Below are positions 3,016-47,568 of a stretch of DNA of 47,568 bases, piece by piece (the stretch's first letter is position 1; the number at the start of each line of letters is the position of its first letter). Made by a program: the position numbers and the translations under genes. Under the pieces are notes generated by a model. The model made no database searches. It was not told the origin of the DNA and saw nothing but the letters and a program-made list of their open reading frames with translations. This DNA is from Gracilaria vermiculophylla (taxonomy: Eukaryota; Rhodophyta; Florideophyceae; Gracilariales; Gracilariaceae), in contig JAHNZQ020000010.1 in the NCBI GenBank assembly GCA_019155205.2, forward strand, positions 1,595,200-1,642,767. The letters run 5' to 3'.

Positions 3016-4885
3016 GCAAATTAGAACCTTTTTATCAATTATCTATTCTTTTCACCCTGGTGGGGATGGCCAGGGAGCCCAAAAATCATACATGATGTTT
3101 TGCGGCTGTTATTGGAGAAGCTCTAACTGGTGCTAAATAGTATGTGCATTCGTTAGAAAGACACAATACACACAACGTTCATCATAAATATTTCCACTCC
3201 ACCTGTATTCAGAATCAATTAAACTGAATAGTTTTGTATGCCTCACGAAAACGTTTTTTACTACCTCGCGATCTGCAAAAATGTTTTTGTCTTTAAACTA
3301 TTCATTAAAACTCAAAAATCTTACTGGTGGTCTATTTTTAAGACGTATGGTCCTTAACATTTCTGCAGCTCATTATTTAACTTCACACATTAGAACACTC
3401 CAGTCCGATCAATTTATTCATGATTCTCCTTCGCATCTAAATTGATATTTAAACCCTCATCTGGACATTTCGTCGTAGCTTTTTTATGATATTTAATATT
3501 TAACAGAAAACGATCATTGGCCACTCATTATCCTGCAACATGTGGCATCGTTATGCTTGCTAACGCATTTGCCAATATCTAAACATCTGTCCAATCTATA
3601 GATCCTGTGTTTCCAGCGAAACAGCTTTTTCCTTTATCAATGCTTCTTGCAGCACAAAATAAGTGTTGAAAACTTACATGTGTTCGGTAACAACAGTACT
3701 GATAAATTTGAAACCAAATCTTTTGTTTTAAAACTTTTTCCATATTTCATGTTCCATCATTAAATTCCACAAAATAGTTGTATAGTTTAGACTCTGTGGC
3801 AGACAAATGTTTTCGATTAATCATTCAATGCTTACTTCTTCCATTAAAAACATATGACCTGAAATTTTCAAGTTTCAACCATTTCTAACTGTTTTTATTG
3901 CCATAAATGCAATCTTCTTCTGAATACATGAAACGCCTTCCCCTTCCATTGTTCATATTTCTAGATACAGTTGGTTGTATTTCTCTCAATAAAATATCAA
4001 ATTCTTTATATGACTTTTTTCATAGACATACTTGTCTCGGAACGATTTCGAAAAAACATTTTATCATATATCGGGCTGTTAGGTTTGTCACCGTCGTCGG
4101 AATTTTCACAACAATAGTTATGTGGAAAACTGCTGCCTTTCATTCTCTTTTCAACAGTTTCTGTATTTCAAGATGTTAAAAACCTTTGCAGCGTATTGCA
4201 GAGAAACAAGACCCATAGATGAGAAGCAAAGAAAGATCTGCTATAGAAAGAAGACGTAAAAAGGTCCTATCTTTGCACATCTATCTAATGCTTCCCCACT
4301 TACCATTGTTCTAGGCGTAAAATATGCATCTGTTTATCTTCATTCTTATCTTTGGCCACGCAGTTCTTAGTTATAATTTAGATCTCTGCACAAAATTAAA
4401 ATGTTTCCAAATTTATAGCTGTGTTTTTATACGTACAGTTATTTGACGACTGTATGTGGCGTCCATTATTCAAGGCGCAGTTTTCAAGCGCACACGCAGC
4501 TTGAGATAACTCGAACAGTACAAAATGCTCCGCCATTTCTGGCCGTTTCTCGGCTCCAAGTGGTGTTTACTCGTTCGAGTGGCATTCCTTTTCTGTCATT
4601 GCCAGGTCTGTTCTTTCGCTTGCACTTGCTGCTCCATGCGCTCATCTGCTAATTTCACAATTTGCTGTCGCCATTCCCCCCAAGTCAACTTTATCCTTGT
4701 TGCTCACAATCTCTATCGCTCTATATTCAATTTTATTGAGCCCTGTCGTCTCAAACAAACTCCGCATGTTGCATAAGAGTCATGGCATGCAACTCAAACC
4801 CATGTTATACTGTTAAACTCGAACGACCTATGCCGTTGTAACTGGAGGTGTCCAGTTGCTGCCACACAAATTAGAAGTTCATGCA
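3016..4885. other. AT-rich spacer, no gene recognised
   Basis: About 1.9 kb of low-complexity, AT-rich DNA. Short open frames at 3907-4179 and 4443-4776 have no motif and no related copy in the window. I see no LTR, terminal repeat or RNA gene. Confidence 0.5.
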
Positions 4886-26744: not shown

Positions 26745-28328
26745 ACATACACCACGGGGATATCTTGGAATTTGTAACTCATCACAACCTGTATTACAAT
26801 ACCATAAACATATGATATCTTTCCAATAAGGTGCGTTTCAAAATCTCTCGCTTCAAAGTCTTGGTTGCCAAGGTGAAGGTTGGAGTTTCAAAAAACATTT
26901 TTCGTTCCATTTCTGTTAACACTGAAACATACTTGTTTACTGCTTAACACTGTTCCGAGAACATATTTTACAAAATAAAAAACTCCAAATGATAAAATAT
27001 TGTTAGCTTGACTTCAGCACATTCAATAATTAAACAAACTATAATTATTTATATAAACTGCGGAGTATTTGGTCTACATAACAATTTTGATAAAAATGTT
27101 TAAACAAGATTTATGCAAAACAATGTACACTTATTTAACTACGTCTTGTAATGGTTCGTTTGCTTGACATTATTTTACAGAAGGGCTTTTCCTCAGAATC
27201 AAAAATGTTATTAAAATTATGAACATGTTAAATGAAAATGTTACTGGCTCTTAACTCTTTTGTAAGAAAGACTGAAGCAATTTAATAGAAGTATAGTAAT
27301 TATTTAGCGTATATTTCCTAAGTCATTTCATATCGTACGAAGATAATCTACCACATCGGCCTTCTTCAACAGAAGCATTCAAAAATGCCACAAAAGCCAA
27401 ATCCTAGGTTTTCTGTTACTGTACTTACACAACATGTTTTAAGAATGAAATGCAAACTAGACTTGTAGTGTTATGGTTTTCTTAGAAGTGGGATTGGTTC
27501 TTAGTATAACAAATGGGATAACAGCTTTTCTTTTACAACTGCTATATTAAAGCGCCAAGAGACCTGACATGGCCCAAAACTCTCAAAGCTATGACAACCA
27601 AGTTACCAAGTTGCAAATGTGTTAAAAGTAATTTTCTAAGCACGTTCGGGTTCAGTACTTTTGCATTACTCTGTTGTGGATTTTCAGTCTCATTCGAATC
27701 TACTCTCATTTTCAGAAGCCCTTTTCACGTTTTCGGACATATTAAACAGGATACTTTTATACCCAGTAGATTACTAACATTAAATACTTCATGAAGTCAG
27801 GTTAAGCTTAATCATAATGTTTTTCTTTATTCTTCTCTGTTTGTTGCCTTCTGGTCTTCAAAAGTTCTAAAAACCTGTCTGACTATAAAGCTGATCTCAC
27901 ATTTATTCATTTTTTATTAAAATCTTTATTATATTTTTGAAATATTGCTGGATTGTAAAACACTCTTTAGTTCGTGCTTTGAGTGTCTCAATACTGTTTT
28001 TCATTTAGTTTTGTAGAATTGTAGAAACATAAAATAAAATACACGCTTTCTAGTTTAGGCGTAACGTGAACTGGAGAGATTGATGTAATTCTCTTGATGT
28101 ACTACGTTATGCGTAGACGGGTTTGACAGAATATCTTTCCGCTAAAAAATTAAATTTTAAAAGTTTTAGAAAACTTGTTACAATACATTCATTATGTTTT
28201 TTTATTTCAAAAGAAAGTTTTTTTCTCATATTTTTTCAGAAACGGTAGGGCATTTCTGGAATATATTTACGATTGCAAACCTCAGAGTGTTAACTTTCTG
28301 TATTATTTGTTTTCTTTTTCATCGCTTC
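26745..28328. other. AT-rich spacer, no gene recognised
   Basis: About 1.6 kb of strongly AT-rich DNA between copia C and element D. The frame 27591-27794 starts with ATG and is hydrophobic, but nothing supports it as a gene. It forms the left flank of the element D insertion. Confidence 0.5.
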
Positions 28329-28333
28329 GTGAC
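28329..28333. repeat. Target-site duplication of element D, left
   Basis: GTGAC, repeated exactly at 33861-33865 just outside the other LTR. Confidence 0.88.
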
Positions 28334-28715
28334 TGATGCGTGTCGATCCTCGTGCCTGGCGCAACGAGAGGTGGAGGCGGACCGTGGTGCGGAAACAACA
28401 CAACGTCGCTTGTGTCTTGCGATGGGCAATTGACTTTCCGCAGTAAGAGTGCAGAAGGAGATGTCCGGCTTTTACATGCGCAAGGGGGGTCGGCGTTTTT
28501 ATCGCGAACTTTTGCCTGCCTTCGTCTCCTCGCCCCAGGTCGATCTGCGCTACCCCTCACTTCTGGCCCCTGTACCGACCGGCGGTGCAGTGGACAGAGT
28601 AGCGAAGGAGGGCTGGAATTACACTGCGTCAAAAACAATTCGGCTGCCTTGAATGACGGCCGGTAATTGGATGCCGCGCCTTATGGCGGCATCCCAGCTG
28701 CAGGATAGCAGCACA
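28334..28715 (-). repeat. 3' LTR of element D
   Basis: 382 bp, TGATGCGTGTCGATCC ... GGATAGCAGCACA on the plus strand. GC-rich compared with the flanks. Same length as its partner at 33479-33860. Confidence 0.95.
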
Positions 28716-28726
28716 GTCCCCCACGG
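28716..28726 (-). promoter_or_regulatory. Polypurine tract of element D
   Basis: Minus strand CCGTGGGGGAC, immediately before the LTR start TGTGCTGC and only a few bases after the pol stop at 28732. Confidence 0.7.
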
Positions 28727-28731
28727 TCGGC

Positions 28732-30537
28732 TCAGACGCCGATGGAACGCTTAGCGTCGCAAAATGCGACAGTAGATCTGCGACGTTTGAAGAAGTCACG
28801 AACCTTGGAAGGAACGTTCTCGAACATTGCCGGAAGAGGCTCTGATAAGTCTCCGGCGGTTGTCAGACCTTTCCAACTGACAAGGACTTTGAATGAGTCC
28901 TGAGTCTTGCGTACGTCCTTGATCTTTTCGACGGCGCATCAGACTCTATCAGTAAATTCTGCGATGTCGCGCATCTCGACAGGAGTGCCAACAGATGAGT
29001 CGGCGTACGGCCTGTCTCGAGAGACGTGTAGGATTTCCTTGTCTTCTTTCAGCAGGTGCTCGACTTCGATGGTGAAGTCCGAGAGAATCTGGGTGATCCG
29101 ACGAGGTCAGAACCAGTTGCACAAAATCTTAGTCCGCGGTCCAGGAGCTCGAGCAACGACAACATAGTCTCCCAGAGTACGTTTGAAGGGACGTACGTGT
29201 GTCTTAGCGTTGTGGCGATCCACTGCATGAGTTCGAGACGCTGATATAGATTCGTTGACGGACTTGTGCATCTGGTCGAGAGCATGAAGAATCTTGTCGA
29301 TCTTGAGCTTGCGTAGGGTTGTGACTTGCTCGGCAGAGTCCACTTCGCAATTCTGTAGTGAAGCCAAAGCCATGGACAGCGGATTCCGAGGTTTCATGCC
29401 GGTATGAACTTCAATAGGAGCACGGTTGTGCAGGCGGCGAGAAGGCGAGTTGTTGATGACACTCTGGATAGATGGCACAACAATAGGCCAAGCAGACTCC
29501 GCTATGGGGAGCTCGGCACTAAGAGCGCACATGACTCGAAGGACCTGCTTGCAAACGGATTCAACATTACCGTTCGACAATGGTACGTAGGCCGTCGAGA
29601 AACGGTGCTTGCATCCGAAGGCTGATGCGAGGAACTCCAACACTTTGTTCTGGAAGTGACGACCTTGGTCCGAGAACCAATCAAGCACAGGAGTGAATAT
29701 TGAGAAATACTCCAGCACGGTATTGGAAGTGTTCTCGGCATTTGCTGATTTGAAAGGCCGGAGGAACACGTATCCAGAGAATTCATCCTTAAGTATGAGG
29801 ATGTACTCGTCTTGTGTGCTGGATTCGCCAATGTATAGGTAGTCGAAGTGAAAAAGTTCGCCAGCTCGCTCAGCATGAAGCTGGTGTCGGAGGGGGCGTG
29901 GCACCTTATCACCACTGGCTGATAGGAGGCAAACGAGACAGCGTTGGACATAGGCCTTGACGTGGGCGTCAATGGTTGGCCAGTGACGCTTGTCTTTGAT
30001 GATAGTGCAGGTTGTCGTATAGCCACGATGTCCGCCAAGTCCACAGTGGGCAGCCACGCAGATCCGAAGATGTAGCTCTTCGTCATCTGGAGGAACGTAC
30101 AGTTTGCCCTGTGAATTCTTTAACACAGAGACAGAGTCATATGTCAACGTGTAGCCAGTGTTGGCTGGTGGAGGAGTGCAATTCTGTGACTCAGCGATAA
30201 CTTTTAGAGAGGGAAGATAAGGAGTATCAGCCGTAGACGTGATAAGCGGTGCACGGAGTGCAGTAATCTGGCGGGCGGGGAACGGGGTGTTTGACGGAGC
30301 ACGCCAGCGTGTAAGCATGTCGGCCCACACATTGTTCTCTCCTGGGATGTGTTCGACCGTGAAGTTGATCTCTGACAAACGAAAAGCCCAACGTTGAACT
30401 TTTTGCACAATGTGCCTTGCCACGCTTGCTTGAAAGCGAGACGGAGCGAGCATGTACAGGATGTTCTTGTGATCTGTGAACAGGGAGAACTCTGGGCATG
30501 CTACGAGTATATGTGCTAGTCGAATTACGGATGCCAC
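28732..30537 (-). pseudogene. int: Element D integrase and C-terminal tail, with RNase H end
   Basis: The frame is open for 476 codons from 30537 to 29107. It begins with the RNase H end and tether (FSLFTDHKNILYML, VEHIPGENNVWADMLTRW). The integrase zinc finger follows (HCGLGGHRGYTTTCTI ... YVQRCLVCLL). The catalytic triad is complete: FHFDYLYIGES, DWFSDQGRHF and LSNGNVES, with 35 residues between the second Asp and Glu. After TGA at 29107 the same frame goes on (PRRITQ, EVEHLL), with another TGA near 28930. It ends with SFKVLVSWKGL ... FENVPSKVRDFF, which resembles a short chromodomain-like tail. The final stop is TGA 28734-28732. Only two stops separate this from an intact enzyme. Confidence 0.92.
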
Positions 30538-32195
30538 GACAGCGTATGACTCTTTCTCATGGGTGGTCCAGCGTATGGAAGAACCACGGAAGGTACCGGA
30601 GATGAACGCGATTGGCTCGTGTGCCCACTTCTGCGGTTCTTTGCCTGAATTGAATTAAGACTTCGAAACTTGGGTGAAAACTCCAAACCAATGCGTTGAG
30701 GAAGCATCTGTGAAGAGACAGAGTCGTTTTTCTGGATCAGCTGTCGCCAGTGTTACTTGCTTCTTGATTTCCTGAACGAGGGATGTAAAGCCAGTATGAT
30801 GCTCGTCCCCCCATGCCGAGAGAGGGCGATTAATAAGACGGGATTTTTCCGGGTCTTGAACACCATGTAGTTTTCTTCGAGCAAGTTGTGGAGCGGACCG
30901 ATAAGTTGAGCGAAGGTGGGTATCGCGGTCCGCATCCATTTTGAGCCATGGACCAGTTCCACTAGAGCGCCAACGGTAGTAGGAGTAGACATGGAAGTCA
31001 GGGCTTCGTACTGACGGGGATGGAACTTGATTCCGTTTTTGCTGATAATTCTCCCGCAGAACTGTACTTCCGATGCAACAAGCTCGCTTTTTTCAGGTTG
31101 GAGCTTGAGGCCATTTTCCTGGCAGATGGGGAAGGTTGCGCGCAGTTTGTCCAGGAGCTCAGAGGGGGTTTTGGCATACCCAAGTAGGTCATCGATGTAG
31201 ATGAGGATATCGATATGACCAGACATCGCTTCTACGGAGGATTGGAAATAAATTCCAGAATTCTTGGCGCCGTGAAGAACTCGTATTGGCGTATAGACAC
31301 CAAACGGAGTGTGGAACGATTGGCATTCCTGTGAGTCCTTGCCGGGTGGTAATTGCCAGTATCCATGAATGAAGTCGATTTTGAACCATAGCTTGCTACC
31401 AGAGAGTCGAGCGAGCATTGGTTATGCCATTCGCATAGGCCAGGCGTTGAGTTTTGTCTGAGCGTTGATAGGCCGGAGGTCGACTGTGAAACGGAATCCT
31501 TCTTTGCCGGTTTTCGGAACAAGGAGTGGAGCACATGCCCACTTAGAAAAGTTGTTCCGGTAAATATATCCAGCTTTTTCGAGTTCGTCGACCTTCTTTT
31601 TCAAGAACGTCAGCTGTTCAAGACAGTATGTGCGCTGGCGGACCTTGATCGGTCGCTTGGAGCCCTCGAGTTCGATGACCATTAGTGGAACAGAGACAGG
31701 AGGATCTTTTCCGAGGCGGATACGGAAGATGTCCTTGACGCTCGTAACTAAGTCCTGAAGAGTGGGACGAAGGTCACTTGGGAGCTTCTTGGCAGCTCGA
31801 TCGATCATATGCTGAATCGCTGAGTCGAGCTATTCAGTGTCTTGCTCACCGCCTTCGACGTTTTTGTAGTCGATGTCGTCACCGTCTCTCAACGGAAAAT
31901 CGCCGTTGGCCATCATAGAGCACAGATGGCTCGAATGGAGGTGATGAGAGTCGTCAAGGCTGTCGGATGCGTCTGCATCGACTTGCTGATGTATGACCTT
32001 GAGACCCAACTTGCCGACTTTGGTGGATGTTTCTTCGGAATGGACTTCGCCAAAGGCGATGGACGAGAGACATTCCATATTTTTGGCAACAAAGTCCTTA
32101 ACGTCCAGGCCGGAGCGGATGAGGAAGGGATTCACCAGGAAAATCTCACCGGGGCATGCGGTGCCCGGTTTGATGTAGGTACTTTGATCCGGCAT
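30538..32195 (-). pseudogene. pol: Element D reverse transcriptase and RNase H
   Basis: RT is preceded by a spacer domain (32195-31830). It starts at about 31808 and shows the leader GYIYRNNFSKWACAPLLVPK, FTVDLRPINAQT, FKIDFIHGYWQLPP and the intact catalytic box LIYIDDLLGYA near 31195. It continues with FCGRIISKNGIKFHP. The connection has LIGPLHNLLEENYMVFK. RNase H follows with LCLFTDASSTHWFGVFTQV, then FISGTFRGSSIRWTTHEKESYAVV. Stops and shifts occur near 31420 (after PMRMA), 30750 and 30655. The polymerase core itself (31418-30753) is an uninterrupted 221-codon frame. Confidence 0.92.
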
Positions 32196-32480
32196 GATTT
32201 TTGCCTTGATGTTTCGAAGGCGATAGGGGCCAGCGACCGTCTCAAGAATCGGACTGATCTCGACTTTGCCGTGTCAATTGATAGAGCGACTATCGAAAGC
32301 TTAGACCGATTCGGTGTTCGACGGTCGGATGTTAGGTAGCTAGACGCCTTTGTTGCCGAGAAAATTGACGATTGGCTCAGAGATAGCGACGATATCAGCT
32401 CCTGAGTCGATACGGCACGCGAATGTGTGACCGCTGATTTCTGCATCAATGACAGTAGATGTATCAGAATTGGAGGCTGA
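32196..32480 (-). pseudogene. Element D protease region
   Basis: The retropepsin active site is visible as CRIDSGADIVAIS near 32400, within VIDAEISGHTFACRIDSGAD. This Asp-Ser-Gly triad would cleave the polyprotein. Stops follow near 32340 and 32290 before the frame resumes toward RT. It is encoded in the same frame as the CCHC knuckle of gag, as expected for a gag-pol fusion. Confidence 0.85.
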
Positions 32481-33438
32481 TGCGTCATTTGAGCATTGAG
32501 GAGCCATCGAAGTTCCAGCATCCTCACAAACGACGACAGAGACCTTGGGTGGTTTGTTGCCGCTCTTCTTATTGCGTCTGACTTCGAGGAGCTGTTTGGC
32601 AAGCTCCGACGAGGTGTTGAGACAGTCCTTGACGAGATGGCGCTTGTCGCACTCGGGATGAAGGCATTCTGGTGAGGCCCTTTCGGATCCATTGGATGAT
32701 GTGGACTTGTCCTTAACTTGAGCCGGAGCCATGCGTTTTGCATCCGGGCTTCTCACAGTTCTTCTTGCTGCACTTGTGGACTTCGGGATGGGTTTTGGCC
32801 CGGTACTCCCGAAGTGGATGGACCTCTTCGAAGATGACAGCCTTCTCGGAAAGGAATTCCATGAATTCAAAGTACTTATCTTCGAGGTTGGATTGTTTGA
32901 GCTCCAAAGCGTCCTAGACTCGCTTCTTGAGACGAGTAGGCTGCAGCACGGAGGTGATGTGCTTGATGGCAGCCTTGGGTGCCTTTTCGATAAATTTCCA
33001 TCCGCGCTTCTCGCATAGTTCCAGGTAGGATGCAGAAAGCATTATGATGCGTAGGCGTGCATCAGGCTCGGAGGCGTCGAGGTGGAAGTTCTTCTACACA
33101 TCCGCGAGAGCTTCTTCGGCAGAAACGGTTTTTGTTCCCGCGGCGAATGATTCCATCTTTGACCTGATCAGTTAGTCCGTCAGCCGAGAGACTTCAGTGA
33201 CTTCGGCACCAAACATGTGTGCACGGACGAGAGATCGTAGGAATGTGGACGGAAAGCAGGATCGCCAAAACACAGGCTTGAGACTTGGCTGCACGGCGAC
33301 GGTATCCTCGTAGGCTTCTCGATCGGCGAGAAAGTCCTGGATAGCCTTGCGCGAAATAAAAGCCAAGCGCGGGGCTTGAACAGGTGCGAACAAATGAGCT
33401 GTTGCACCGGCACCAGGGCTCATACGTTCCGAGCTCAT
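32481..33438 (-). pseudogene. gag: Element D gag with CCHC knuckle
   Basis: ATG 33438-33436 lies only about 40 bp from the 5' LTR. The frame reads LFAPVQAPRLAFISRKAIQD and VFWRSCFPSTFLRSLVRAHM. It goes on through stops at 33174 (TAA), near 33094 and near 32914 (TAG), with LSASYLELCEKRGWKFI and KYFEFMEFLSEKAVIF. A shift near 32720 leads to the nucleocapsid end with a zinc knuckle CLHPECDKRHLVKDC and a Lys-rich tail. The capsid N-part is short, as in gypsy elements of this style. It is disabled by three stops and a shift. Confidence 0.8.
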
Positions 33439-33455
33439 GTTGACTTAAAGCAGCG

Positions 33456-33470
33456 TACTGCGCAGCGCCA
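33456..33470 (-). promoter_or_regulatory. Probable primer-binding site of element D
   Basis: Eight bases after the 5' LTR the minus strand reads TGGCGCTGCGCAGTA. The TGG start fits a tRNA CCA end, and the tRNA identity is not assigned. Confidence 0.45.
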
Positions 33471-33478
33471 GTTATAAC

Positions 33479-33860
33479 TGTTGCGTATCGATCCACGTGG
33501 CTGGCGCAACGAGAGGTGGAGGCGGAGCGTGGTGCGGAAGCAAGACGACGGCGCTTATGTCTCGCGACGGGCAATTGACTCCCCGCAGTAAGAGTGCAGA
33601 AAAAGATGTCCGACTTTTACAGGCCCGAGGGGGGTCGGCGTCTTTGTCGCGAACTTTTGCCTGCATTCGTCTCTTCGCCCCAGGTCGATCTGCGCTACCC
33701 CTCACTTCAGGACCCTGTACCGACCGGCGGTGCAGTGGACTGAGGAGCGAAGGAGGGCTGGAATTACACTGGGTCAAAAACAATTCGGCGGCCTTGAATG
33801 ACGGCCAGTACCTGGATGCCGCGCCTTATGGCGGCATCCAAGCTGCAGGATAGCAGCACA
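33479..33860 (-). repeat. 5' LTR of element D
   Basis: 382 bp, TGTTGCGTATCGATCC ... GGATAGCAGCACA on the plus strand, followed by the target duplication. Confidence 0.95.
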
Positions 33861-34546: not shown

Positions 34547-36374
34547 CTACTCAAATTCTCTTCGTTTTCTTTCCTTTTGTATCGCTACATGTTCGTCGAT
34601 CATCTGATTTACTAATTGGTGCTGTATACAGGCTTCGCATTCCAATTGAGTGGATGGTTGCTGATGATCATCGTGGAGAGCTTTAATCTCCTTTACTGTT
34701 CTGACAGGAGCAATTGCACTTTTCATTACGCTGAAGGCAGCCGTGGCATTCCTCATAGGGTTCTTTAAGTATGTGGCTTTCCCACTGCTCCTCTTTTGAC
34801 CGCGAAGAGCTGAAGGAGCCTAGTAAACTACTTCATCATCGGTATGGCCTTCTCGCATTGATGGCAGTCTCGAAAATGCAGTTGTAAACAAAGCGGACTG
34901 TAAATATGTCTCCAATGGTTCCCCGTTTTTGAATCTGTCTGAAAACCCAGAGAAAAAGGAAAATAGTCTAGTAGCGGTGAAGGAGGACTTGAAATTGGCC
35001 ATGGAAAAGAAACCTTACATGGTATTCCGTTTTCACATCTCGACTGATGGTTCGCGGCACTTCATCTCATTGAATGATGAAGCGAGTCGTTGTCAGCAGC
35101 ACATCCGTGCTCCGCAGCTTCGAAGATTTGTTCCACATGTAAGCATTCTTCGTCAGATGTCATCACGGTGAATTTCTTGACCTTATTTTGTTGTGGGGCC
35201 GTTTGTTGCGGATCTGTATGTCTAATTTTATTTAACAGATGAACCTTTTTCAGGGCATATACTGTACTGTTTCTTGAACCTGTGTGTTTGGCAATTGAAC
35301 AAATAAGGTGCTTTGCTTCGTTTCACAGTAATCGTATGGCTCTGCCGTTTTTGGATGCATTTGTGCTCTTATTTTCGGCGTTGCTTCGACAACAGCTACT
35401 ATTTCCTCATGGAAGAGACCATGCAGAAGTAATATGTCATCTGGAGGATGTTTCCTTGTTTTGCGCAAATATTAACGAAGAAAAAAAGTTAGGCTCTTCA
35501 TCATGAGCTGTATCAGTTTGAATGCGATGGGCGTTGCTACCGGTTTTGTTTGAGTCTAGCATGTCTTTTTTTTTGATAATTGCGTCTAGGTGGGCTGAGT
35601 ATCACACTGGATCTCACTATCTTGCTGCTCTAGTCCAATGTGGGATTTCCATTTAGTACAGACCTTATCCAGAGTTGATTGTTTTCCATAAATAACCTTC
35701 TATAAACGGGACCACTTACTTTAGCGCACGAAAAATCACAAAACCTTCATAGTAGTATTAGCCAAGCACACGTTGGCACTGAAACGCATCGCACAAGCGC
35801 ATCCAACCAGTTGGCTGCAGCTGGATCTGCTTGCTGTACTGCAGATTCTTCTCTTATCATACAACACGGCACCGGCCTGGTCTCGTACTCATCTGCTTCT
35901 TTCCGCAATTGAGACCTGAGATATCCATTTTAAGAAGTGGTTGACGATTGCTCCACACTTTGTTAACGTCGTCAGCACGAATATGGCCCGGCCACTTATC
36001 AATCTCTGAATCAACGCTATTCAGACATGGGGTATTTATTTTAACACCACGTAGACAGTCGCCTCGTACTAGTTTTCCTTTTTTTTCTTTTCTCTTCCCT
36101 GATACGAACTTCTGGAATCATTTCGGTGACATTGCGCTTGAATCCAGTACTATTTCGAAAACGAGCGGTTTTTCATGTAGTTAAGACTGTTGTCAGGTCG
36201 TGATTTTTGCAAACAATACGAAAAGCTGCCACACTTTTTTCCGCCCCTCCTTGTTAGAAGTAAGCACACTAAACTTAAAATTATAGATCGTCGGAAAACA
36301 TTAAAAAAGCTCCACGTCCGAATTGTGGGCATATTCATATTTTTGTTCGCCAGGATTTCCCAGTCGTCTTCCAT
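34547..36374 (-). pseudogene. Gene 1 of repeat unit, arm A (unidentified)
   Basis: This decayed minus-strand gene starts at ATG 36374, with DDWEILANKNMN near its N-terminus. It runs through several shifted segments that have counterparts in arm B (46060-47440). Shared pieces include WEILANKN, VTEMIPEVRIREEKRKK, QTDTAHDEEPNF and SSLIFAQNK, LLHGLFHEEIVAVVEA, and VMTSDEECLHVEQ. A last frame (about 35021-34547) has only one in-frame TAG. It reads FKSSFTATRLFSFFSGF, then FSVMKSAIAPVRTVKE, and ends in a charged tail, HVAIQKERKRREFE. Such a tail recalls accessory proteins of PIF/Harbinger-like transposons, which usually also have a Myb/SANT domain. I did not find one here, so this is only a possibility. 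Confidence 0.45.
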
Positions 36375-38463
36375 GACTTTCGTTGTTTTTTCTATTTCTT
36401 TCCTATTATTGCTCTGATTCGATTTCTACTGACGGTATTCAGCACTGCGACTCTGGTTTTTAGTGCCTTTCACTGACGAATTGTTATATAGAATGCGCGC
36501 CCATCTCAAAGGGTTGGAAGAAGTACTGGAATAGACATGACAAAATCCATGAATGACAGATTAGACGAAACATTTGATTACGTGTTCTAGGAACCTAATA
36601 TCTGCAGGAAAATGAGCCATATATGAGTTCAATGTTTCTCACATTAGACCATTATTTTTATAACGTTCAAACAAATAAAAAGCATCCAACGCCTCCAAAA
36701 TCTTATGGAAAAGAGAAAGATATCTTCACTTTGATCGGTATCAACAAAGACCAATATTGAACGAAAGAGTTTCTGACGATACCGTTTCAATAACTTCGTT
36801 ATTATTCTTTAAATTATTAACAATGCCATTCACGAATCCCCGTAGTGGCGTTGATACTCGAGTTTATACTTGTGTTTGACCTTTCTTAAGTGACGGGAAA
36901 TGGACGTGATATTTTTTCCAAAACGGAGAAACTCAATTGGGAATGATGGACATTATGAGAAGTGCAATGTAATCGTCATTCTCAACATTGGACGCCCACA
37001 GATAATTATGACAGTTTTTTTGAGCTCTCTTGCCGCATCACGCAGTGTGACACTACTTTACGTCACGCAACCTTAAGGCGCTGCACCATATATCCAGTTC
37101 AATAATTCATGCCAATATTGGATCTCATGAGATGCAGTTCCGTAGTGCGGAGAATAGTCTTGATGTGGAGCAAACGGACGTTGAAAACCACATCGTTACG
37201 CAAGATCATATTCATTTACAAGGTGAATTTCTTGTCTTCTGTGTGTCACGAAACGGACTATATCTGGATTTTCATTCTCAGGATTGCAATATGTATACTT
37301 CAAATATGCAAACTAACGGTCCAGTTTAGCTGTATCGGAAAAATGTAATTGTTCCAGATGGTGGCATTATCTAAGAGCGTCACATACTATAGCCGGGCAC
37401 ACTTCATGAAATTTAGATTTATATGTTTCCGATAACATTGATAGGGACTATTATCTGGTCTTTTGATGCCAATACTGACTTCTATTTGTGAAAAGAAGAC
37501 GTCCATACGAGAAGATTATGACGTTTCTCGGGGTCATGTCTCTTGTGTTTTTGGTCTGATTTCAGAGAGAGAAGGCTCTACGGAGTAAAACGGCTTACTG
37601 CTAGTCAATAATTACCGTTGACTAGCCTAAAAATGGCCATAAATCCATTTGAGATGTTTAGGAGGCATATCTGTTTTTTATTTGATACGCAACACGACAC
37701 AGATAGATATGCATTAGGGTTACGGGCTCCAGATTTATTCAAAGCTATCAACAGTCACTGTAAAGCATATAAAACTGCCAATCATATCTTCTAAGATAGC
37801 TCAACCATGTCACTATGGTATAGACTGGGTGGAAAATAGATTTAACCAGGCCTTTTACTACATATGGTAATAGACCAGAAGCTGGAGATTATCTATTTAT
37901 TGAATACAGTATCCTGCAAAGAAACTGGAATAATGCAATAGAATAGGAATCAATAGTAGTCTTATGCCTCGTTGGTGAAAAACGTCACAAGGAGGATCAA
38001 AACCTTTTTGCCTAGAAGGAAGCGCAGTGACCAGAACACGCTTGACTGCGGCACAAATACCCGGGTATAAACACGGTAAAGCCGTTGCGACCTCTGCGAA
38101 GGAGGGATCAGAATGGGCCGATAGTGCTGATGTGGACTTCCAATGAGGCATGGGCCAAGAAATGGAGCTTAAATGTTCTCCCCACACGAGTCTCGGTAAA
38201 AACTAGGAGACATTCGTCACTACCGAAGGTAAAAATAAAACAGAGCCGCGATGCAGAAAAGAACAAGTAACTAGATGGGGATCCAGAATATTATTTAAGG
38301 CTCGCAAGGAGATTATATGAACCTTGCACAACGTGGTATTTCTCCTCGCGGAGTTGGATATTGCATGGGCATGAATAGCAGAATTTACAATCAGAAGTAC
38401 AGTACGTTTTGGGCGCGTGAACAGCAGATACAACCGCAGCGCCGGCGCCTTGAGTACCGTATT
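35015..38463. repeat. Unclassified two-gene repeat unit, arm A
   Basis: This matches 44284-47440 in inverted orientation over about 3 kb, with indels. Matching blocks include 35581-35650 with 46800-46870, 36050-36310 with 46140-46410, 36500-36680 with the reverse complement of 45740-45950, 37260-37550 with 45360-45660, 37850-37960 with 44950-45090, and 38190-38340 with 44580-44740. Identity by eye is about 70-80% in these blocks. The low-coordinate edge is set by where arm B stops matching, so the native unit probably extends to at least 34547. Confidence 0.85.
36480..38280 (+). pseudogene. Gene 2 of repeat unit, arm A (unidentified)
   Basis: This plus-strand gene, divergent from gene 1 (starts about 110 bp apart), is much decayed. 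Comparison with arm B shows the frame: near 36510 TGIDMTKSMNDRLDE then DYVF, at 37255 YLDFHSQDCNMY and NGPV then LYRKNVIVPDGG, later MFRRHICFLFDTQHDT, IDQKLEIIYLL, VSCKETGIM. At 37260-37370 the substitutions fit one frame. A TAG here stands where arm B has CAG, and arm B has TAG where this copy has CAA. The intervening 36700-37200 has no arm B match. Length of at least 500 codons would suit a transposase, but I can identify no DDE or other catalytic motif. Confidence 0.5.
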
Positions 38464-39299
38464 CATCGACAGTGGCAATAACAATTATCCATTAAATGGT
38501 TTGTACTGTAACTGCCATGTTTTAGGAGCTGCTCCAATCTATGGCTTTTATCCCAAACATTATTCTCACCCATTTTCAAACTGAAAATAAGAATTGTAAG
38601 GTAAAGAAGACTGCCCGCTACCAAACGTTAGTTTACAAAAAAGCCACCCATCCACCATAAAGATTTCAAGAAGGCTTGAATTGAATTTGGAAGGCCGTTA
38701 TTATACCTGAAGATTCTTTTCGAAACTATCGTCTTCCGGACATCTTGAATTATATCTGTTCATTTGTGACCAAATTTCGTATTACGATGTGCTTATCTCG
38801 GATATGCTAAATGATGAAGAAACTATATAGCTTGTTCATTACATGTTTCTAGTCCTTTGCTAATGTATGGATTTACAGAAGTTGTTTTTCAACGAAATCT
38901 AATGAAATGTCATCTCTCACCATCAATCCATTAATCAGCCATAAGCTTTTTCTCAGAGCCTGGGAAGCAGGGCACCCATGATTTGTGCTCTCTATGATGA
39001 TTGATCTCCTGTTCTGATAATTTTGAAAAGGATACTTCTTTGTAGTTGTTGGGCTCTCGCCAATGCGTCGCGGTCCACGTTTTAATAGCGAAAGTCCTGT
39101 ATCTCCTTACGCAAAGAGAACGGCAGCGTATACAGTGCAATTATAGCAAAAGACAATCCTAAACTCTTCTCATCGATACAGCTCTATCATGGCCGTCGTC
39201 GTTCTTGTACCATATTTCTATTGACACTTTCATACCAATAGTGATGATATGTAACGGCGTGTTAACGGTTCTCACTGCGACGTATGATATTGTTTAGTG
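38464..39299. other. Spacer between arm A and copia E
   Basis: No LTR of element E is found here. A minus-strand frame at 39140-38931 is coherent (CIRCRSLCVRRYRTFAIKTW, EINHHREHKSWVPCF) but lacks an ATG and has no relative in the window. Otherwise nothing is recognised. Confidence 0.45.
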
Positions 39300-39367
39300 T
39301 CCCGGCTCAACGAAGTCTAGCAGCAAGTGCCAAGTACGGCTATAGCTTATAAAAAGCCTATCGGCAA

Positions 39368-40412
39368 GTGCCCTGTGTTAGATTTGCCGGTACTATCAAC
39401 CTAGAAGCATCAGATGATGATGTTATGAACCCTGTCAACCAGATAAAAACAGTACAAGATATCATCGCCCTTGTGGCCCAAGACTCGCCAACTGACAGAA
39501 TCCGCCGCCTTGTCAGAATGCTGCGTGATGTCTTTGCCTGCGTTCGGAAGGACGACGAGACTTCTTCTGAGTTCGCTCGGCGATTCAGATCTATTGCGTT
39601 AGACTGCCTGAACGAGAGCAGTTCGGCGCACTCTCAGCAGGACACACAGAACTTCGCCATGTTGCTTCTCGAGAACGCCAAGCTACCAGCAGAGGTCTAC
39701 AGTTCTGTAATTACAAGACTAGTCACGTCCGCTACCCAACGCACCAGCACGTCCGTGAACAAGATCTACGTCATCAGCAAGAAACGGCTTGATATGATTC
39801 ACAGCGAAGCGACCAAGATTAAGACCCAGGATACGCAGTCCTCTGCAGAAGATCACCGAGCCGCCGCCGAGTCAATCATCTCCATCACCGAGGCAACAGC
39901 GAAAACTAACGAGCCTCGTGGAAAACAAGACAAGAGCATCTTTAAGGTTCGCCTCGCTGACGCATTCTTCGTAATTTCAGACCTTAAAGTCCCCTTTCCG
40001 CTAGACAGTCAAAAGCAGCAAGGCATACAAAAAGACGTCAAGAAATTGAGCACGATGCTCGGCAAGAGAGAATACCACCAGAACGGTAGTAATGAGAACC
40101 CCAAGAAACACAAGAATACGACGATTCCGTCCGGCCAAGGCCCCAAAGCGAGCACGAGATGCCACAACTGCAAACAGTCACATTAATGGTATAAAGACCC
40201 TGAATGCATCTACAACGTAATCAAGCAGCTCATGCAAGGAAAGAAAATCCATGCAGACGTCTTACAGAAGCTTTCTCCTGAGATGAGAAATGCTTTTAAG
40301 GATGAGGCAGGCAACATCACCACGAAGGCTTCTGTAAGCAATATTGTAGGAGTCATTGGTAGCGCACATGACAAGCCAGACAAGAATAGAGACCAGAGTA
40401 AAAAAAGGACCT
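39368..40412 (+). pseudogene. gag: Copia E gag with zinc knuckle
   Basis: The frame is open for 272 codons to TAA 40184-40186, with a helical capsid-like region (RIRRLVRMLRDVFACVRK, SSEFARRFRSIALDC, NFAMLLLENAKLPAEVYS). It then has a knuckle, TRCHNCKQSH, stop, WYKDPEC, so the TAA sits inside the CCHC motif. The same frame then continues (VIKQLMQGKKIHADVLQKL, SPEMRNAFKDEAG) to about 40412, where it shifts toward pol. The first ATG that is certain lies at 39425 within the frame; the initiation site is unclear because the leader is not recognisable. Confidence 0.8.
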
Positions 40413-40419
40413 CGTATTT

Positions 40420-41691
40420 GTGGAAAAGGGATCGGAAACGCTTCTACCAGATTCCAATCCGATTCTGGATGAAGGAGCACAAACGTCAACAGGCTGTATC
40501 GAAAACGCTGTTACCCTCTGCGAAGTCCTTGGCATACCCTTCGAACTAGGCCCCCCACGAGATTTGTACCTACACGGTTGGGGTGATACGTGCTTGGGAG
40601 CACGACAGATCGTTTGCTCATGGACACTCACCGTCCATGATACTCAAGGAAGGCGAACGTCGCTGACATTCGATCTTGTCCCGAAGTCATCTCCTCTGAT
40701 CGTGGGTAATGACGTTCGACAGTATTGCAACACTTACAATCTCGAGGAGCAACCGTATCTCCACATCCGCCGACAAACTGAAGATGGAGATCGATACCTG
40801 TTCACATATCTAATACCTGAAGATAACCGCTCTCGCCTTGACATTGCACCTCACCCACTGTCTGTCAAAACCACCTTGCTCGGTAACATACACACCACGT
40901 CCGCACGCACACCATTAGCATTTTGTAAGCGTGTGCATCGTTACACACACGCCACCGTCAAAGAAATGAAAATGCTTTGCACAGATGCAGGCATGCTCAA
41001 CCCCGAACTTGAAGAAGGCATCGAAAGGGTTTATGCCGTATGCGAAATTTGTGCAAAAAATGGACTTCCACTGCCGACACAAAAATTTTCGCTAACACAT
41101 GTCAATCAAGGATTTAATGTTGAAATTCAAATTGATTTTCTTTTCCCGACCATCCGTGGCGAGAAGCGTACAGTGATGAATATCATAGACACTGGCACAT
41201 CGTACACCACTTTATGCCTCACCGCCAACCGCAATGCCGACACCATGATCCGAAACTTGGAGGTATACTGGATATGCCAGCATGGTGCTCCAGAAGCCAT
41301 CTCAGCAGACGATGAATATAACTGCACAGCCCTTCGGGAGTTTCTTGCAGCCCATGAAATTCAATTCAAACCGAGACCCAGCCGCCGTCACAACAAAACA
41401 GGAATTGTTGAAAGGAAGAATGGTACAGTGAAACGAATACTTTCCAAGCTGGATGACGAACAGAGTACAGCCGACACCGAGACTATCATCGCTCGTTCTG
41501 CATTCTTTTCCAACCTATTTTCAGGGAATAGGATACTCAGTTCCTTCGAATTGGTGCGTGGATACCGCCCTTCTGTTGTCAGTCTCCCTCAAACGGTCGT
41601 GACCGATGAGATCCTTCAGGCGCACAAGGAACAGACGGCTGTGCGGAAACTACAACGCCTCATGCAATCATGGATTCACAACGTGAATTGA
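40420..41691 (+). pseudogene. pol: Copia E protease and integrase
   Basis: An uninterrupted 423-codon frame. Near the start NPILDEGAQTSTGC stands where copia proteases have D-S/T-G-A, so the second active-site residue is Glu here. Further on comes SPLIVGNDV. The integrase finger follows (VHRYTHATVKEMKMLC ... VCEICAKNG). The core has the first Asp in EIQIDFLFP and the next Asp in AISADDEYNC. The Glu is in HNKTGIVERKNGTVKR, about 32 residues on. The C-terminal part runs past a stop at 41691 (PGNPVWVFY, then VRWVKAQVVSAHPEFFEV). The catalytic acids of integrase are kept; the protease may be altered. Confidence 0.88.
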
Positions 41692-43716
41692 AGCGAACAC
41701 TTGCAACCCGGAAACCCCGTCTGGGTGTTTTATTAGACGAGCAAACAAAACGATCCTGTTCGATGGGTCAAAGCTCAGGTTGTCTCCGCGCACCCAGAGT
41801 TTTTCGAAGTCAAGAGAGCTACAAAAGGACGACCCATGCGTGTAGCTTACAAAGACGTTCGCTTTGCCCCACAAGGCGAACTCACAGCTGAACTTATGTC
41901 TTGTTCCCTTGAAGAGGAACTGAGAAAAGCCATGGATCACGAACAAGCAATATCGGATACTGCTACGCCTGTCCCCAATATAGCACCTCCCGCTGCACCG
42001 CCATCAACAAGCCTTCTCACGTCCGCTGCAGCACCCACCGACACCAACGCTATTCCTGTCGATGATGGGGCGAAGGACATTGGCAACTATGCGACAAGCA
42101 ATAGCGCAACAGTTGCACCACCACTTGATGGACAGTCACTGAAACGTGACTTGAGCAGAGAAATCGAACAGATCCATAATGTCATCGGCTCTAAACAAGT
42201 TAGGTCGTCTCAACTCACTTTTGCGCCTCCGCACATCATACAAGAAGCCCTCAAACGTAAACACGACACGAACTGGGGAGATGCATAAACTACAGTTGCT
42301 GATGTCGACGTTCCACGCCAAGCAAATGTGATCACCTCCCACGTCGTGTACAAGATCAAGACAGACGAAAACGGAAGGCGTGCCATGAAGGGAAGGATTG
42401 TTCCACATGGAAACCACGATGATCAGAAGGACGACATTCGGAAGGTCTCGTCCAACGCTCCTCTCTTTATCGTCCGCCTTCTTCTCTCGCTTGCTACGTT
42501 TTTGGGTTTTCGCATTGGAACTGCCGATATTAAGGGTGCCTTTCTCCAAAGCGGGTTAATTAATTGAGACATATACGTCAGACCACCTCGCGAATGGAAT
42601 GCAGAGAGAGGTATCCTGTGGAAGTTACTAAAGCTCCCCTACGGCATTGACGATGCTGGCAGGCAATGGCAGAAAACTGTTGAACAGTGGATGGTTGGTG
42701 GGGCACACCTGGAACGTGTTATTGGACTGCCGCAACTCTTCATCAAAAGGAACGAGTCGAGCCGTATCGACTTATTGATTGCCAAAGTTACAGACGACCT
42801 CCTTCTAGCCGGGCATATTCGTGAAATGCAGAAGTTCACCACATTGCTTCAAGACCGTTTCGTTGTCGGAAAGGTCATCTTAGACAATATGATCCATTTT
42901 GATGGATGTGAGGTCGAACAATCTTTAACCGGAGACATCACAATGTCAGTGGTCAGGTATCTGGAACGTCTTAAGTCGATCGAGATCTAAAGATCCAGAA
43001 AGAAAGAGCAAGACCAACAGGCTACTGTGACCGAACTTACGCAATATCGATCCATCGCTTGCACCCTTATGTATCTTGGGAATGGTGTGCTACCACAGGC
43101 GGCATACGTGACTTCAACACTGCAACAACTAATACCAAAAGTTAAAGTTGAGCATCTCATCACCGCAAACAACATGCTCAAGGAAATTCTAATTCTGGAA
43201 CCGAGGATCACATTCATAGCTCCACCAGCTCCAGAAGAAATCACTGAAGTCATTGTTACGTCTTTCTCAGACGCTTCATTTAACAATGGGACCGCCAACG
43301 GCTACGGACAAACAGTAAATATATCGGGACTCAGGATCATGATGAAGAATGGAGCTGATCTCTTCCACACGATAGACTGGGCGAGCAACAAACAGCGCAG
43401 AGTGAGCTACTCACCCTACGGAGCGGAAGTCCTAGCCGGTGCCGAGTCTGATGACAGAGGTTTTTACCTAAAGCAGGGGCTCAATGAGATGTTCGCACAC
43501 ACTAAAGTACGAAGTGAACTATGCACGGACTCCCGATGTCTGTATGACACCATCACTACGCTACACGAAGCAAGAGACTACCGCCTGCGTGCGACGGTTC
43601 AGCGCCTGCGCAACAGCTTCGAAGCTCAAGAGTTGGATGTCATGAAGTGGATACCTGGAGATGCTAACCCCGCAGATGCGCTAGCCAAGCGTAATCCGAA
43701 ACGTCACAGCTCCTGA
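41692..43716 (+). pseudogene. pol: Copia E reverse transcriptase and RNase H
   Basis: After a shifted integrase end and a Pro/Ala-rich linker (41836-42288), RT begins with PRQANVITSHVVYKIKTDE, KGRIVPHGNHDDQKDD and GTADIKGAFLQSG. A TAA follows at 42565. The next frame shows YVRPPREW and LPYGIDDAGRQW. The catalytic box is KVTDDLLLAG near 42790, with both Asp but Thr before them. A TAA at 42988 precedes the RNase H frame, 43027-43716, which is open for 229 codons. It reads YRSIACTLMYLGNGVLPQ, SFSDASFNNG, YSPYGAEVLAGAESDDR and WIPGDANPADALAKR, the canonical end. Four stops or shifts separate the pieces. Confidence 0.9.
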
Positions 43717-43823
43717 ACCAGCTACTGTCCTCTGAGATCACCTGTATTGGTATTGATTCAGGATATGCTGTTAACAGCGAGCAATGGAAATGATATACTA
43801 GTTCACGCTCAAGTATTTCGCGC

Positions 43824-43835
43824 GACTGAGGGGGA
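43824..43835 (+). promoter_or_regulatory. Polypurine tract of copia E
   Basis: GACTGAGGGGGA, followed directly by TGTGGCAAC, the LTR start. Confidence 0.75.
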
Positions 43836-44283
43836 TGTGGCAACTTCAACATTGTCAGTGTCATATAACAGATGCTTGTGACACACTGTAGACGTCAGTA
43901 GTCTAAAAGGTCTACAGTGTGCCTCCCATAGTCGCGATTCTGTTTTATGTTTTGAATGCAACAGAGATAATGCATTGCGAAAGAGATGCCTGCAACTCTA
44001 AGGCAATTGCATCTCTGAATGTTAAAGTCTAATGCAACTGCACTAACAATGCAGCTACTGAACCATAGCAACTTTAAAGGGCGCAAGCAAACCCTAAAAG
44101 TAGAGCTAGTCCGATGAGTGATAGGATCGTCGGACAACAAAGAAAGAAACCGTGCCAGTTGTGGAGTTGACCTCCACGAGCCTGTTGTGCTCTCCCACTT
44201 TTCCATCCGTAGAATACGCAACCACCACTCTACCTCCCCTTATTGGCCAATCACACCTCGCTCAGTATGGGAATTTTCACAAC
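43836..44283 (+). repeat. 3' LTR of copia E, with stem-loop
   Basis: It begins TGTGGCAACTTC after the polypurine tract. Without a second LTR the end cannot be fixed; it lies between about 44250 and 44283, where arm B homology begins. Near its start is a perfect 12-bp stem, CACACTGTAGAC (43882-43893) and GTCTACAGTGTG (43910-43921), with a 16-nt loop. An 8-bp stem AGAGATGC/GCATCTCT follows about 60 bp downstream. Confidence 0.65.
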
Positions 44284-46059
44284 AGTACTTAAGGCGCCAG
44301 CGTTACCGTCGTCGTTGCAGTAAAAGGCCCGAAAAAGTACTGTATTCCTAATCTTAAAGTAGGTTCTTATTTTTCCTGCGTAAGCGATGACGGTAACGAG
44401 TACTCTGTCTGGCGCTGACAATTGGAGAGCGAAGGCTGTAAAGGGGCGCGGAGTAGGGGAAAGGTCGCAATTACGAAAATCAGTAGCGTACATAACGCGA
44501 GAGTTCTCTGGTATTGCCTCAAAATATGACGGTCATTGACCTGTCAGAAGAACAGTCTTCATTAAGGTAATCCCAGTTGTTTCAATGACCAACTCTACGA
44601 GGAGTGATACCCTGTCTTGCAAGGTTCATTAATCCTATTGCCTGCATTAAATAATATTCTGGATCCGCATTCAACTACTTAGTTCTTTTCCGCGTCGCGG
44701 CCTTGTTTTATTCTTGCCTTCGTTTGAGACGAATTTCTCTAGTTTTTTGCGCCACTCGTCAGCGGAGCCCCTTTGCTCTCTAGATCATGGTTTATATTTC
44801 ATGGGAGAATCATATCTGACCTATCTACGGATTGTTATCAATCCTTCGCACACGTCGAGACTTCTGAATGGTGTTTTTTACTCCGGTAGTTGTGCCGCAC
44901 TCAATTGTGCTCTGTTCACTACGCTTTCTCCAAGGCAGGAATGTTTTGAACGCCTCTGTGAAGTTTATCGCAATCGGAACATTGCACTACTATTGATTCC
45001 GATTTTTGGCATTATTCCAGTTTCTCCGCAGGATACTGTTTTCATATTATAAACAATTTCTGGCTTCTGGTCTATAAACCCATGATGTAGAAGGCCTGCA
45101 TAAATCTGTTTTCCACGCCGTCCATACCATTATGACATGTTTCAACTAATTCAGAAGATGTGACTGGCAGTTGTAAATGATCTCCGGTGAAAGTTAATAG
45201 ATGGGACTAGTTTTGGAACCAGTGACCGTAATGCATAGCTATTTGTGTCTACGGCGTATGAAATAAAAAACTGATATGCGTTTAAAATTTTTCAAATGAA
45301 ATTCTGGCCATTCGTTTACTTGTTTTGGTATAGTTATAAAATAATAGCAAGACGCTTTCTTTCGTAGAGCCCTTATTTGACTGACCCCAGACCAAAACCA
45401 CAAAACCCATGAAAGCGAGAAACTCAAAAAATTTTGTCGCGACGTGTTTTCTTCTCAGAAACAAGTCACTACTGGCTTCAGAAGACCAGAAAAAAGTCTT
45501 TAAGAATGCCATCGGAAACATACAAACATCAAATTCATGAAGAGTCACTGACAGTGCTGTGGGACGCTCTTCGGCCACCAGCTGGACCAATGACATTCCT
45601 CTGATGCAGCTGAACTGCACCGTTATTCTACAGATTTGCAATACACATGTTGCAATCCAGTGAATAAAAATCTAGATGAAGTCCAATTCTTGACACATTG
45701 AAGCCAGTAAATTCACGTTGAAACTGTATTTACATCGAGAGGTTAGAAAAATATGATTTTTTTTTATTTGTTTAAAGGTTGTGACAATTTTGGTATAATC
45801 TGAGAGCAATTGAACTCGAGAATGTCTCATTTTCTCGCAAACATTAGGTTCTTCGAATATGTAATCGATGCTATTTTCTAACCTGCTATTCATGAGTTTT
45901 GGCATGTCTCTACCAGTACATTTTTTGACCCTTTGAGATACCTGCTCATTCAATACAACAATATGTTCGTCATCAGCGCTAAACGCTAAATTTGAAAATG
46001 CTTAGTACCATTAGTAGAAGTGGTATTAAGGCAAAAATAGGAAAAAATAAGTAGATATA
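44284..46059 (-). pseudogene. Gene 2 of repeat unit, arm B (unidentified)
   Basis: This is the minus-strand counterpart of 36480-38463. The best segment (45953-45672) is open for 93 codons and includes CTGRDMPKLMNSRLENSIDY, EEPNVCEKMRH and TTFKQIKK. Next, after a TAG at the end of that frame, the homologous frame continues as LDFYSLDCNM, then NGAVQLHQRNVIGPAGG. A competing frame at 45641-45282 (119 codons, hydrophobic) is open, but substitutions against arm A favour the former. Further conserved peptides are YALRSLVPKL, FIDQKPEIVYNM, VSCGETGIMPKIG. The middle block of arm A (36700-37200) is absent here. No known domain is recognised. Confidence 0.5.
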
Positions 46060-47440
46060 ATGAGAGTGTTGAAAAGCGGCTGGGAATTATTGGCTAACGG
46101 GAATGTGCATATATGCACACGATTCTGTCATAACGTACTGCCTCTGTAATTTTTCGCAACGATATTTCCTTCCCAATTGTGAACACGACCAATGATAAAA
46201 ACCAGAGGCGTAAAAAATGAGATGGCCTCTCTTTGTATTTGCAAAAAGCACGATATGGTACATTTAACCACATAAATAACTCCTCGTTTTCCGTAGTGTA
46301 CTGGATAAAAACTCAATGTGCCCAAGACGATTGTGGAAGTGCGTGTCGGGGAGAAGAAAGGTAAAACAAATCAAAATTATAACTAGTCGCCTGTCTACGT
46401 GATATTATTATAAATAACGTATCTGTAAAAGGCGGGAAATTATAAGGTAGTTACATGACCGGGTCTGGTTTGTTCTGACGGAGAAGAAAATTTATGGAAC
46501 ATAATTCACATATTTATCTTAATATAGATAACTCAGGTCTTGATGCTGGAGAGAACGAGATGTGTAAAAGAGCGTACCGGTGTCTTGCTGTATGACTAAT
46601 TAAGAATATGCAGTACATTCAGCACAGCCAGCTGTGACCAACTGGTGCGACGCACTTATTCGATGCGCCCCAACGCCGTAGATTGCTAGGAAAATACTAT
46701 TATTTGGGTTTTACGATTTTTCGCATGCGCTAGAATACGTAGTATCGCCCATGAAAGCTCAATTACAGAAAATGGTCCACTTTTGGTAAGCTTATTGGTA
46801 AATGGATATCTCACATTAAGCTAAAGCAGCAAGATAATGAGATACCTTGTGATACTTAGCTGACCTAAGCGCAACCATCAAAGTAAAAAGGAATGCCAAA
46901 CTCAAATAAAACCAGTATCAACGACGTTTGCACTCAAACGGATTCAGCTTATGATGAAGAGAGTAACTTTACTTCTTCGTATATATTTGCCCAGAACAAG
47001 TAACCATCTTCCAATTGACAAGTATTTCCTGCATGGTCTTGTCGATGGAGGAATACGCGCTGTTGTGGAAGCAATGCCGCAAACAAGAACACAAATGCAG
47101 CCAATGAAAAACAGAGCCATACTATTACTTTAATACGAAACCAAAGAACCAATTCGAACGATTGTGGGGCATGAAGACTCTACTATCAGTATTGTGTATG
47201 CATTGAGGGAGTTGTATCTGCTAAAAACACCTAGACACATGGATCCCATAACAAACGGTCCCACAACAGTCAAAGGTCGGAATATGCGCCGTTATGACAG
47301 CTGACGAAGAATGCCTGGATGTGCAACGAACCATCAAAGCTGTGGAACACTGCTTCGCTGCTGAGAAAGACTCAACTTATCATGTAATTGCTGCAAGTGC
47401 CGCGAAACACTAGGTGAGTTAGAAAAGAGAATACCATGAT
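46060..47440 (+). pseudogene. Gene 1 of repeat unit, arm B (unidentified)
   Basis: The plus-strand counterpart of 36374-34547. It starts at ATG 46060 with SGWELLANGN, matching DDWEILANKN of arm A, which supports both starts. Further matches are NVPKTIVEVRVGEKKGK, CTQTDSAYDEESNF with SSYIFAQNK, FLHGLVDGGIRAVVEA and VMTADEECLDVQ. The last frame ends at about 47412 (SAAKH, stop). Several shifts and stops interrupt it. The end, including the charged tail seen in arm A, is missing because the repeat stops near 47440. Gene 2 diverges from it on the other strand. Confidence 0.45.
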
Positions 47441-47568
47441 AATATTGGAGGTCAGAGGGGCAAGGGAAAGTTGAGGGGATGCAAAGGAAGTTCGCCAGCT
47501 CTGGCTCGGAGTTTACTTGGAGGTGCTCAAGTCACAACTTATATAGTGCTACTTCGCCGCACCATCGC
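47441..47568. other. Window end, no gene recognised
   Basis: More GC-rich than arm B and without similarity to arm A; possibly another insertion that extends beyond the window. Confidence 0.4.

Follow-up and report, generated by a model that had tools for sequence, protein, structure and literature searches.

PiggyBac transposons have already been reported from red algae (PMC12732532), and enlarged CACTA elements have been described in Chondrus (PMC6431247). By title or abstract, none of the papers found on piggyBac in red algae (Gracilaria, Rhodophyta, Chondrus crispus) describes a unit like the one considered here, and the main text of a Gracilaria sex chromosome paper (PMC12502185) does not mention piggyBac. 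The unit lies in a stretch of 47,568 nucleotides of Gracilaria vermiculophylla DNA, hereafter the window (contig JAHNZQ020000010.1, here C27, positions 1595200–1642767), where a first-pass annotation had noted two inverted copies of an unclassified two-gene unit around a copia element. Our results show that the right-hand part of the unit is, by sequence homology, a degenerate transposase of the piggyBac superfamily in both of these copies, c1 and c2. Together with a third copy (c3) past the end of the window, they are very probably local duplicates of a dead locus that held a piggyBac-superfamily transposon beside, or in, a further sequence of 1.6 kb, here called segment A. The finding is an ordinary one, debris of a piggyBac element, a known superfamily, that is no longer active. 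Its main value is to clarify what the 'unclassified' unit is, and the unit itself makes no open question testable.

The identification comes from a protein profile built from an intact transposase of this genome, 719 amino acids (aa) long, and 46 of its relatives (the first 46 of the 120 listed; 251 were found). On the plus strand of c1, 37264–37935 matched profile positions 142–367 (E 1.5e-15), while on its minus strand 38587–39029 matched positions 591–444 (E 3.4e-9 and 2e-4), and beyond this, up to 39136, at E 1.4 only. Both matches of c2 were on the minus strand, at 44938–45225 (profile positions 296–391, E 3.1e-16) and, weakly, at 45557–45240 (positions 184–288, E 0.028). The best value among 180 shuffled frames was E 0.83 (database size set to 100). 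When the intact 719-aa transposase was used as the query in tblastn, it matched c2 at 45225–44983 (E 1.4e-11) and c1 at 37744–37935 on the plus strand (E 6e-6) and, on the minus strand, at 39020–38901 and 38805–38620 (E 3e-8 for the two together); the reversed query reached E 0.60 at best. A second transposase of this genome came to light with an nhmmer profile of c1–c3, run on the fetched sequence only, which gave a short match at C27:1729136–1729288 (E 4e-5) inside a 349-aa open frame that matches PF13843 (E 3.5e-19). Used as a query, this second transposase matched a copy on contig C14 (E 7e-18; see below), c2 (E 2.8e-6) and the minus strand of c1 (5e-6).

The catalytic DDD triad is not intact in c1 and c2. 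In the ungapped tblastn alignments, at positions that we take to be those of the triad in these transposases, the first aspartate is replaced by serine in both copies, with a stop two residues ahead of that site in both, and the third is replaced by asparagine in c1. Loss of the triad is expected of a dead copy; it excludes a working element and not descent from piggyBac. With regard to the C-terminal cysteine-rich domain of the superfamily, the profile matches of c1 end at position 591 and those of c2 at 391. Searches of the unit against Pfam, NCBIfam and Rfam yielded nothing over the family cut-offs (best below them, DUF4003 and NF011180, each at E 0.0042), and the same holds for Pfam with 20 frame pieces of c1–c3 and with all six frames of c1 and c2. 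These domain searches missed the piggyBac identity of the unit because every copy is broken. The transposase, on the strand that runs from each copy toward the spacer, is the sole recognisable gene.

The genome searched (44.8 Mb, 27 contigs) contains 118 matches to PF13843 (DDE_Tnp_1_7; 116 of 172 candidates scored). It also has 11 matches to the phycobilisome linker family PF00427, spread over contigs C7, C11, C14, C17 and C20, whereas Synechococcus was the only one of 14 control genomes to give a match to this family; taken with the retrotransposons, this indicates a red alga. The intact 719-aa transposase is encoded on the minus strand (L041 1705–3861; PF13843, E 2.9e-44) of an intact-looking 2.9-kb piggyBac element at C1:978590–981515 (L041 1091–4016). 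It aligns with the piggyBat transposase (PDB 9c0f) over residues 231–504 (E 2.7e-6), a remote likeness that concerns the intact transposase. Our unit resembles the intact element in the order and sequence of the transposase, including the segment around the first aspartate, the K-P/G-I-M segment and the region of the third aspartate. A further likeness is the distance of ~0.2 kb between the 5' end and the start codon, which for the unit is suggested by the point where its homology to the C14 copy starts. In contrast to the intact element, the unit is frameshifted and has stops, has lost catalytic residues, carries 1.6 kb of extra DNA, contains an internal inversion (in c1, with the breakpoint also in c2) and has no detectable termini.

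The intact element sits inside a gypsy reverse-transcriptase frame and is flanked on both sides by CTAG (L041 1087–1090 and 4017–4020; C1:978586–981519 overall). When the flanks are joined with exactly one CTAG, the gypsy frame stays open over the junction, which makes CTAG, and not TTAA, the simplest reading of the target duplication. By title or abstract, we found no report in the literature on CTAG versus TTAA target duplications of piggyBac. The termini of the element read TGTCTRTTG, and doubled GCCTCATATGAGGC palindromes lie near both ends. Counted with CTAG as the only four-letter flank, the terminus (CTAGTGTCTRTTG) was found at 23 sites in the genome, against 0 for the reversed pattern; 9 of the 23 are within 1.5 kb of a PF13843 match.

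A blastn comparison of the window plus 29 kb downstream against itself aligned c1 35018–36681 (+) with c2 47438–45761 (−) at 69.3% identity (1690 columns, E 0.0), and c1 37210–38363 (+) with c2 45729–44583 (−) at 72.7% identity (1160 columns, E 2e-178). The nhmmer profile lengthened the match to c1 38465 and c2 44272. In line with the first-pass annotation, the two copies are thus inverted with the block order reversed, they lie ~5.8 kb apart, and the spacer holds a copia-type element (RVT_2, E 6.9e-22), in which no pair of long terminal repeats (LTRs) was recognised (43830–44270 showed no similarity above shuffles to 38466–39400) and no integrase model matched. The self-alignment and genome search that the same annotation had proposed showed not only the inverted pair but also c3, at C27:1651978–1655203, 9 to 12 kb past the window end and in the same orientation as c1 (blastn). 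The closest pair is c2 and c3, with 86.5% identity over 1046 columns followed by 77.5% over 458 columns. Relative to c1, c2 has a ~500-bp deletion near 45729–45761. Beside the start of A, c3 has a stretch of 745 bp (C27:1652312 to 1653057), flanked by CATGGTAT, which c3 may have gained by insertion or c1 lost by deletion; a comparison with the flank of c2 showed no resemblance. The features of c1, c2 and the spacer are listed in Table 1.

Table 1. Parts of the repeated unit and of the spacer between its inverted copies (window positions).
Feature	Position	Strand	Remarks
Y, outer left piece	34689–35025	+	c1 and c3 only, absent from c2; blastn 71.8%, 337 columns, vs C27:1651978–1652312
Segment A of c1, ~1.6 kb	35014–36600	+	common to c1, c2 and c3; not in C14 relative
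Degenerate transposase 5' part, c1	36600–37967 (left edge approximate)	+	putative Met 36823; clear profile match 37264–37935
W of c1, first ~500 bp past inversion breakpoint	37968–38465	+	common to c1 and c2
Inverted transposase 3' part, c1	37968–39240	−	profile matches on 39029–38587
Copia-type retroelement between copies	39353–43716	+	RVT_2 match
W of c2, interrupted by insert	44272–44975	−	profile extension
~192-bp insert in c2	44393–44583	.	copies on C24 and C12, 86–88%
Degenerate transposase 5' part, c2	44938–45840 (right edge approximate)	−	match 45225–44938; weak 45557–45240
Segment A of c2	45840–47442	−	69% to c1; 86.5% to c3 (1046 columns)

On contig C14, nhmmer detected a fourth copy that has diverged further (L040 2193–3330, E 3e-53, and 4175–4399, E 3e-17). 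It is split by an 830-bp insert, and the intact 719-aa transposase matched it at C14 4107–4724 (tblastn, E 1e-18). Homology of the unit to this copy begins at unit position 1593, ~0.2 kb upstream of the transposase start near c1 36823, which is about the same distance as that from the end to the start codon in the intact element. The alignment of the plus strand of c1 stops at C14 4399, and C14 4382–4868 aligns to the reverse strand of c1 (39240–38730), with a z of 7.9 relative to 60 shuffles of the letters. Because the alignment stops on the plus strand and resumes on the minus strand, the 3' half of the transposase is inverted in c1. The DNA on both sides of the inversion breakpoint is common to c1 and c2. 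Together with the loss of the first aspartate in both copies, this common breakpoint points to descent from a copy that was already dead. W did not align with C14 4381–5166 in either orientation. We also considered the minus-strand match at 38587–38808 as a C-terminus of c2 displaced by the copia-type element. This was rejected on two grounds: the length in question is already covered within c2, and the C14 DNA alignment shows that c1 is completed by this piece.

Segment A and its junction with the transposon are present in 3/3 copies of the cluster, and the inversion breakpoint in 2/2 copies that reach it. Neither the C14 copy nor the intact 2.9-kb element contains A. Outside the cluster, neither DNA searches of the genome nor a translated search with one frame of A found it, and one frame of A searched against a protein collection gave 40 candidates, none at E ≤ 1. 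A has no recognisable gene and no Pfam match over the cut-off. Since A is common to all three copies and is not in the C14 copy, local duplication is favoured over repeated transposition. This fits the duplicated locus that the first-pass annotation had offered as one of its options: the copies have both the transposon and further DNA in common, their internal breakpoints coincide and, at the sensitivity reached, A-bearing copies were found only within ~25 kb of one contig.

The simplest account of these copies is local segmental duplication in both orientations, with mobilisation of a dead composite in trans as the main rival. A piggyBac-superfamily DNA transposon probably inserted next to (or into) the 1.6-kb segment A in a retrotransposon-rich block of the chromosome. 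By analogy with its relatives, the living element would have used a DDD transposase to move in cut-and-paste fashion. Its death would have involved inversion of the 3' half and decay of the reading frame. Segmental duplications of the dead locus, some direct and some inverted, would then have given at least three copies within ~25 kb, and c3 presumably shared the fate of the other two. Later, other insertions (copia-type, gypsy and small repeats) and deletions would have split the copies. The copies suggest that, in this block, duplication multiplied transposon DNA that was already dead.

Several observations weigh against duplication of a dead piggyBac locus. Taken alone, c3 has no significant transposase match (tblastn E 0.44; nothing in the profile search); it is placed with c1 and c2 by DNA similarity and ends short of the inversion breakpoint. 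The Pfam model PF13843 itself has no match on c1–c3, and the frames of c1 and c2 are broken. Terminal inverted repeats and target duplications were looked for at c1–c3, and none were found; the edges of these copies are eroded or cut by other insertions, none of them clean, and in the C27 stretch examined there was no exact match to the palindrome that lies near the ends of the intact relative. The identity between c2 and c3 falls from 88% to 75–79% along the unit, for which a single duplication is no simple account. The C14 copy also lacks the first aspartate, so that this loss may predate the cluster. The DNA search of the genome missed Y, a match of 72% over 337 bp, and therefore is not exhaustive; diverged copies elsewhere may exist. 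Finally, A carries a weak codon signal.

Alternatively, the three copies might have inserted separately, as a composite or non-autonomous transposon with A as one of its parts, on which intact piggyBac transposases of the same genome acted in trans. The transposase could have been supplied, since several of the 118 PF13843 matches in the genome are frames without stops, and the outer flanks of c2 and c3 differ, as separate insertions would allow. However, the missing terminal inverted repeats and target duplications speak against such insertions too, as do the confinement of the A-bearing copies found to ~25 kb and the lack of A in both the C14 copy and the intact element. We therefore consider mobilisation in trans unlikely.

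A less likely alternative is that A is a second, divergently transcribed gene of a piggyBac-like transposon. The first-pass annotation had read the unit as two divergent genes whose starts lie ~100 bp apart, and A does stand beside the transposon in all three cluster copies. There is, moreover, a weak codon signal on the opposite strand at unit positions 120–700 (combined z 3.8 and 2.9). Yet the two genes were not confirmed. The longest stop-to-stop frames, of 114 (c1), 133 (c2) and 123 aa (c3), were equalled in 85, 25 and 34 of 200 dinucleotide shuffles, respectively, and no frame scanned had a Pfam match over the cut-off. Coding was tested by the lengths of indels, periodicity over codon positions, stops in common and the conservation of amino acids relative to randomised substitutions. 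Indels ignored the frame, with lengths that are a multiple of 3 in only 1 of 37, 1 of 26 and 0 of 9 cases in the three comparisons. Mismatches were not clearly periodic by codon position (chi2 5.7 in a single block, ≤2.9 in the others). Amino-acid conservation reached a combined z of at most 3.9 in a window in the transposase frame, followed by the 3.8 of segment A on the opposite strand, which is not clearly beyond the spread of the scan (276 windows, standard deviation 1.19, minimum −3.55). The positive control, gypsy copies that have diverged to a similar degree, also gave weak signals only (chi2 ≤11, z up to 4.7, 4 of 34 indels a multiple of 3). Because this control was nearly as blurred, the tests say little about an ancestral gene in the unit and leave room for one. 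No protein relative was found for the tested frame of A, and in the intact relative a single transposase gene is preceded by ~0.2 kb. A second gene in A is thus quite improbable, and it would be similarly surprising if the copies were remnants of a piggyBac-like element not known from elsewhere, with A as a second divergent gene, that survives intact in another red alga.

PIF/Harbinger elements have a two-gene plan, with a DDE_Tnp_4-type transposase and a Myb-like second gene. The first-pass annotation was right in suspecting a DNA transposon, whereas its comparison with PIF/Harbinger or a new family, based on a two-gene impression from raw sequence only, has next to no chance of being correct: the transposase is piggyBac by profile, which refutes it for that part, one gene is recognisable instead of two, and neither the 20 pieces of c1–c3 nor the six frames each of c1 and c2 matched Harbinger, Myb or any other transposase family in the Pfam scans.

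Other repeats surround the copies on C14 and C27. An abundant repeat of ~290 bp lies at L040 4871–5158; 26 of its 39 examined copies are at most 2.5 kb downstream of a PF13843 match, where 0.33 would be expected at random, and it is probably the 3' part of common piggyBac elements. As 25 of these 26 are oriented opposite to the C14 case, the idea that L040 4871–5158 is the C14 copy's own 3' end was not supported. The insert that splits the C14 copy is a GC-rich repeat of ~830 bp (L040 3331–4160), inserted with a 7-bp overlap of the unit coordinates. It recurs at C27:1651147–1651969 with 72.6% identity, and is possibly a solo LTR. Two more decayed piggyBac transposases were found on the minus strand, at C27:1663701–1665385 and at L040 209–1876, the latter head-to-head with the unit-like C14 copy.

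Within the window, a 126-aa frame at 148–528 resembles, by eye, the end of a Tc1/mariner-type transposase (DNAPVH...SPDLNPIENAW). A retroelement at 23707–25441 contains a copia-type RVT_2 frame (24256–24717, E 1e-37). A gypsy-type element, most of whose relatives are unnamed proteins, occupies 28303–33776 and has direct repeats of 300 bp at 28332 and 33477.

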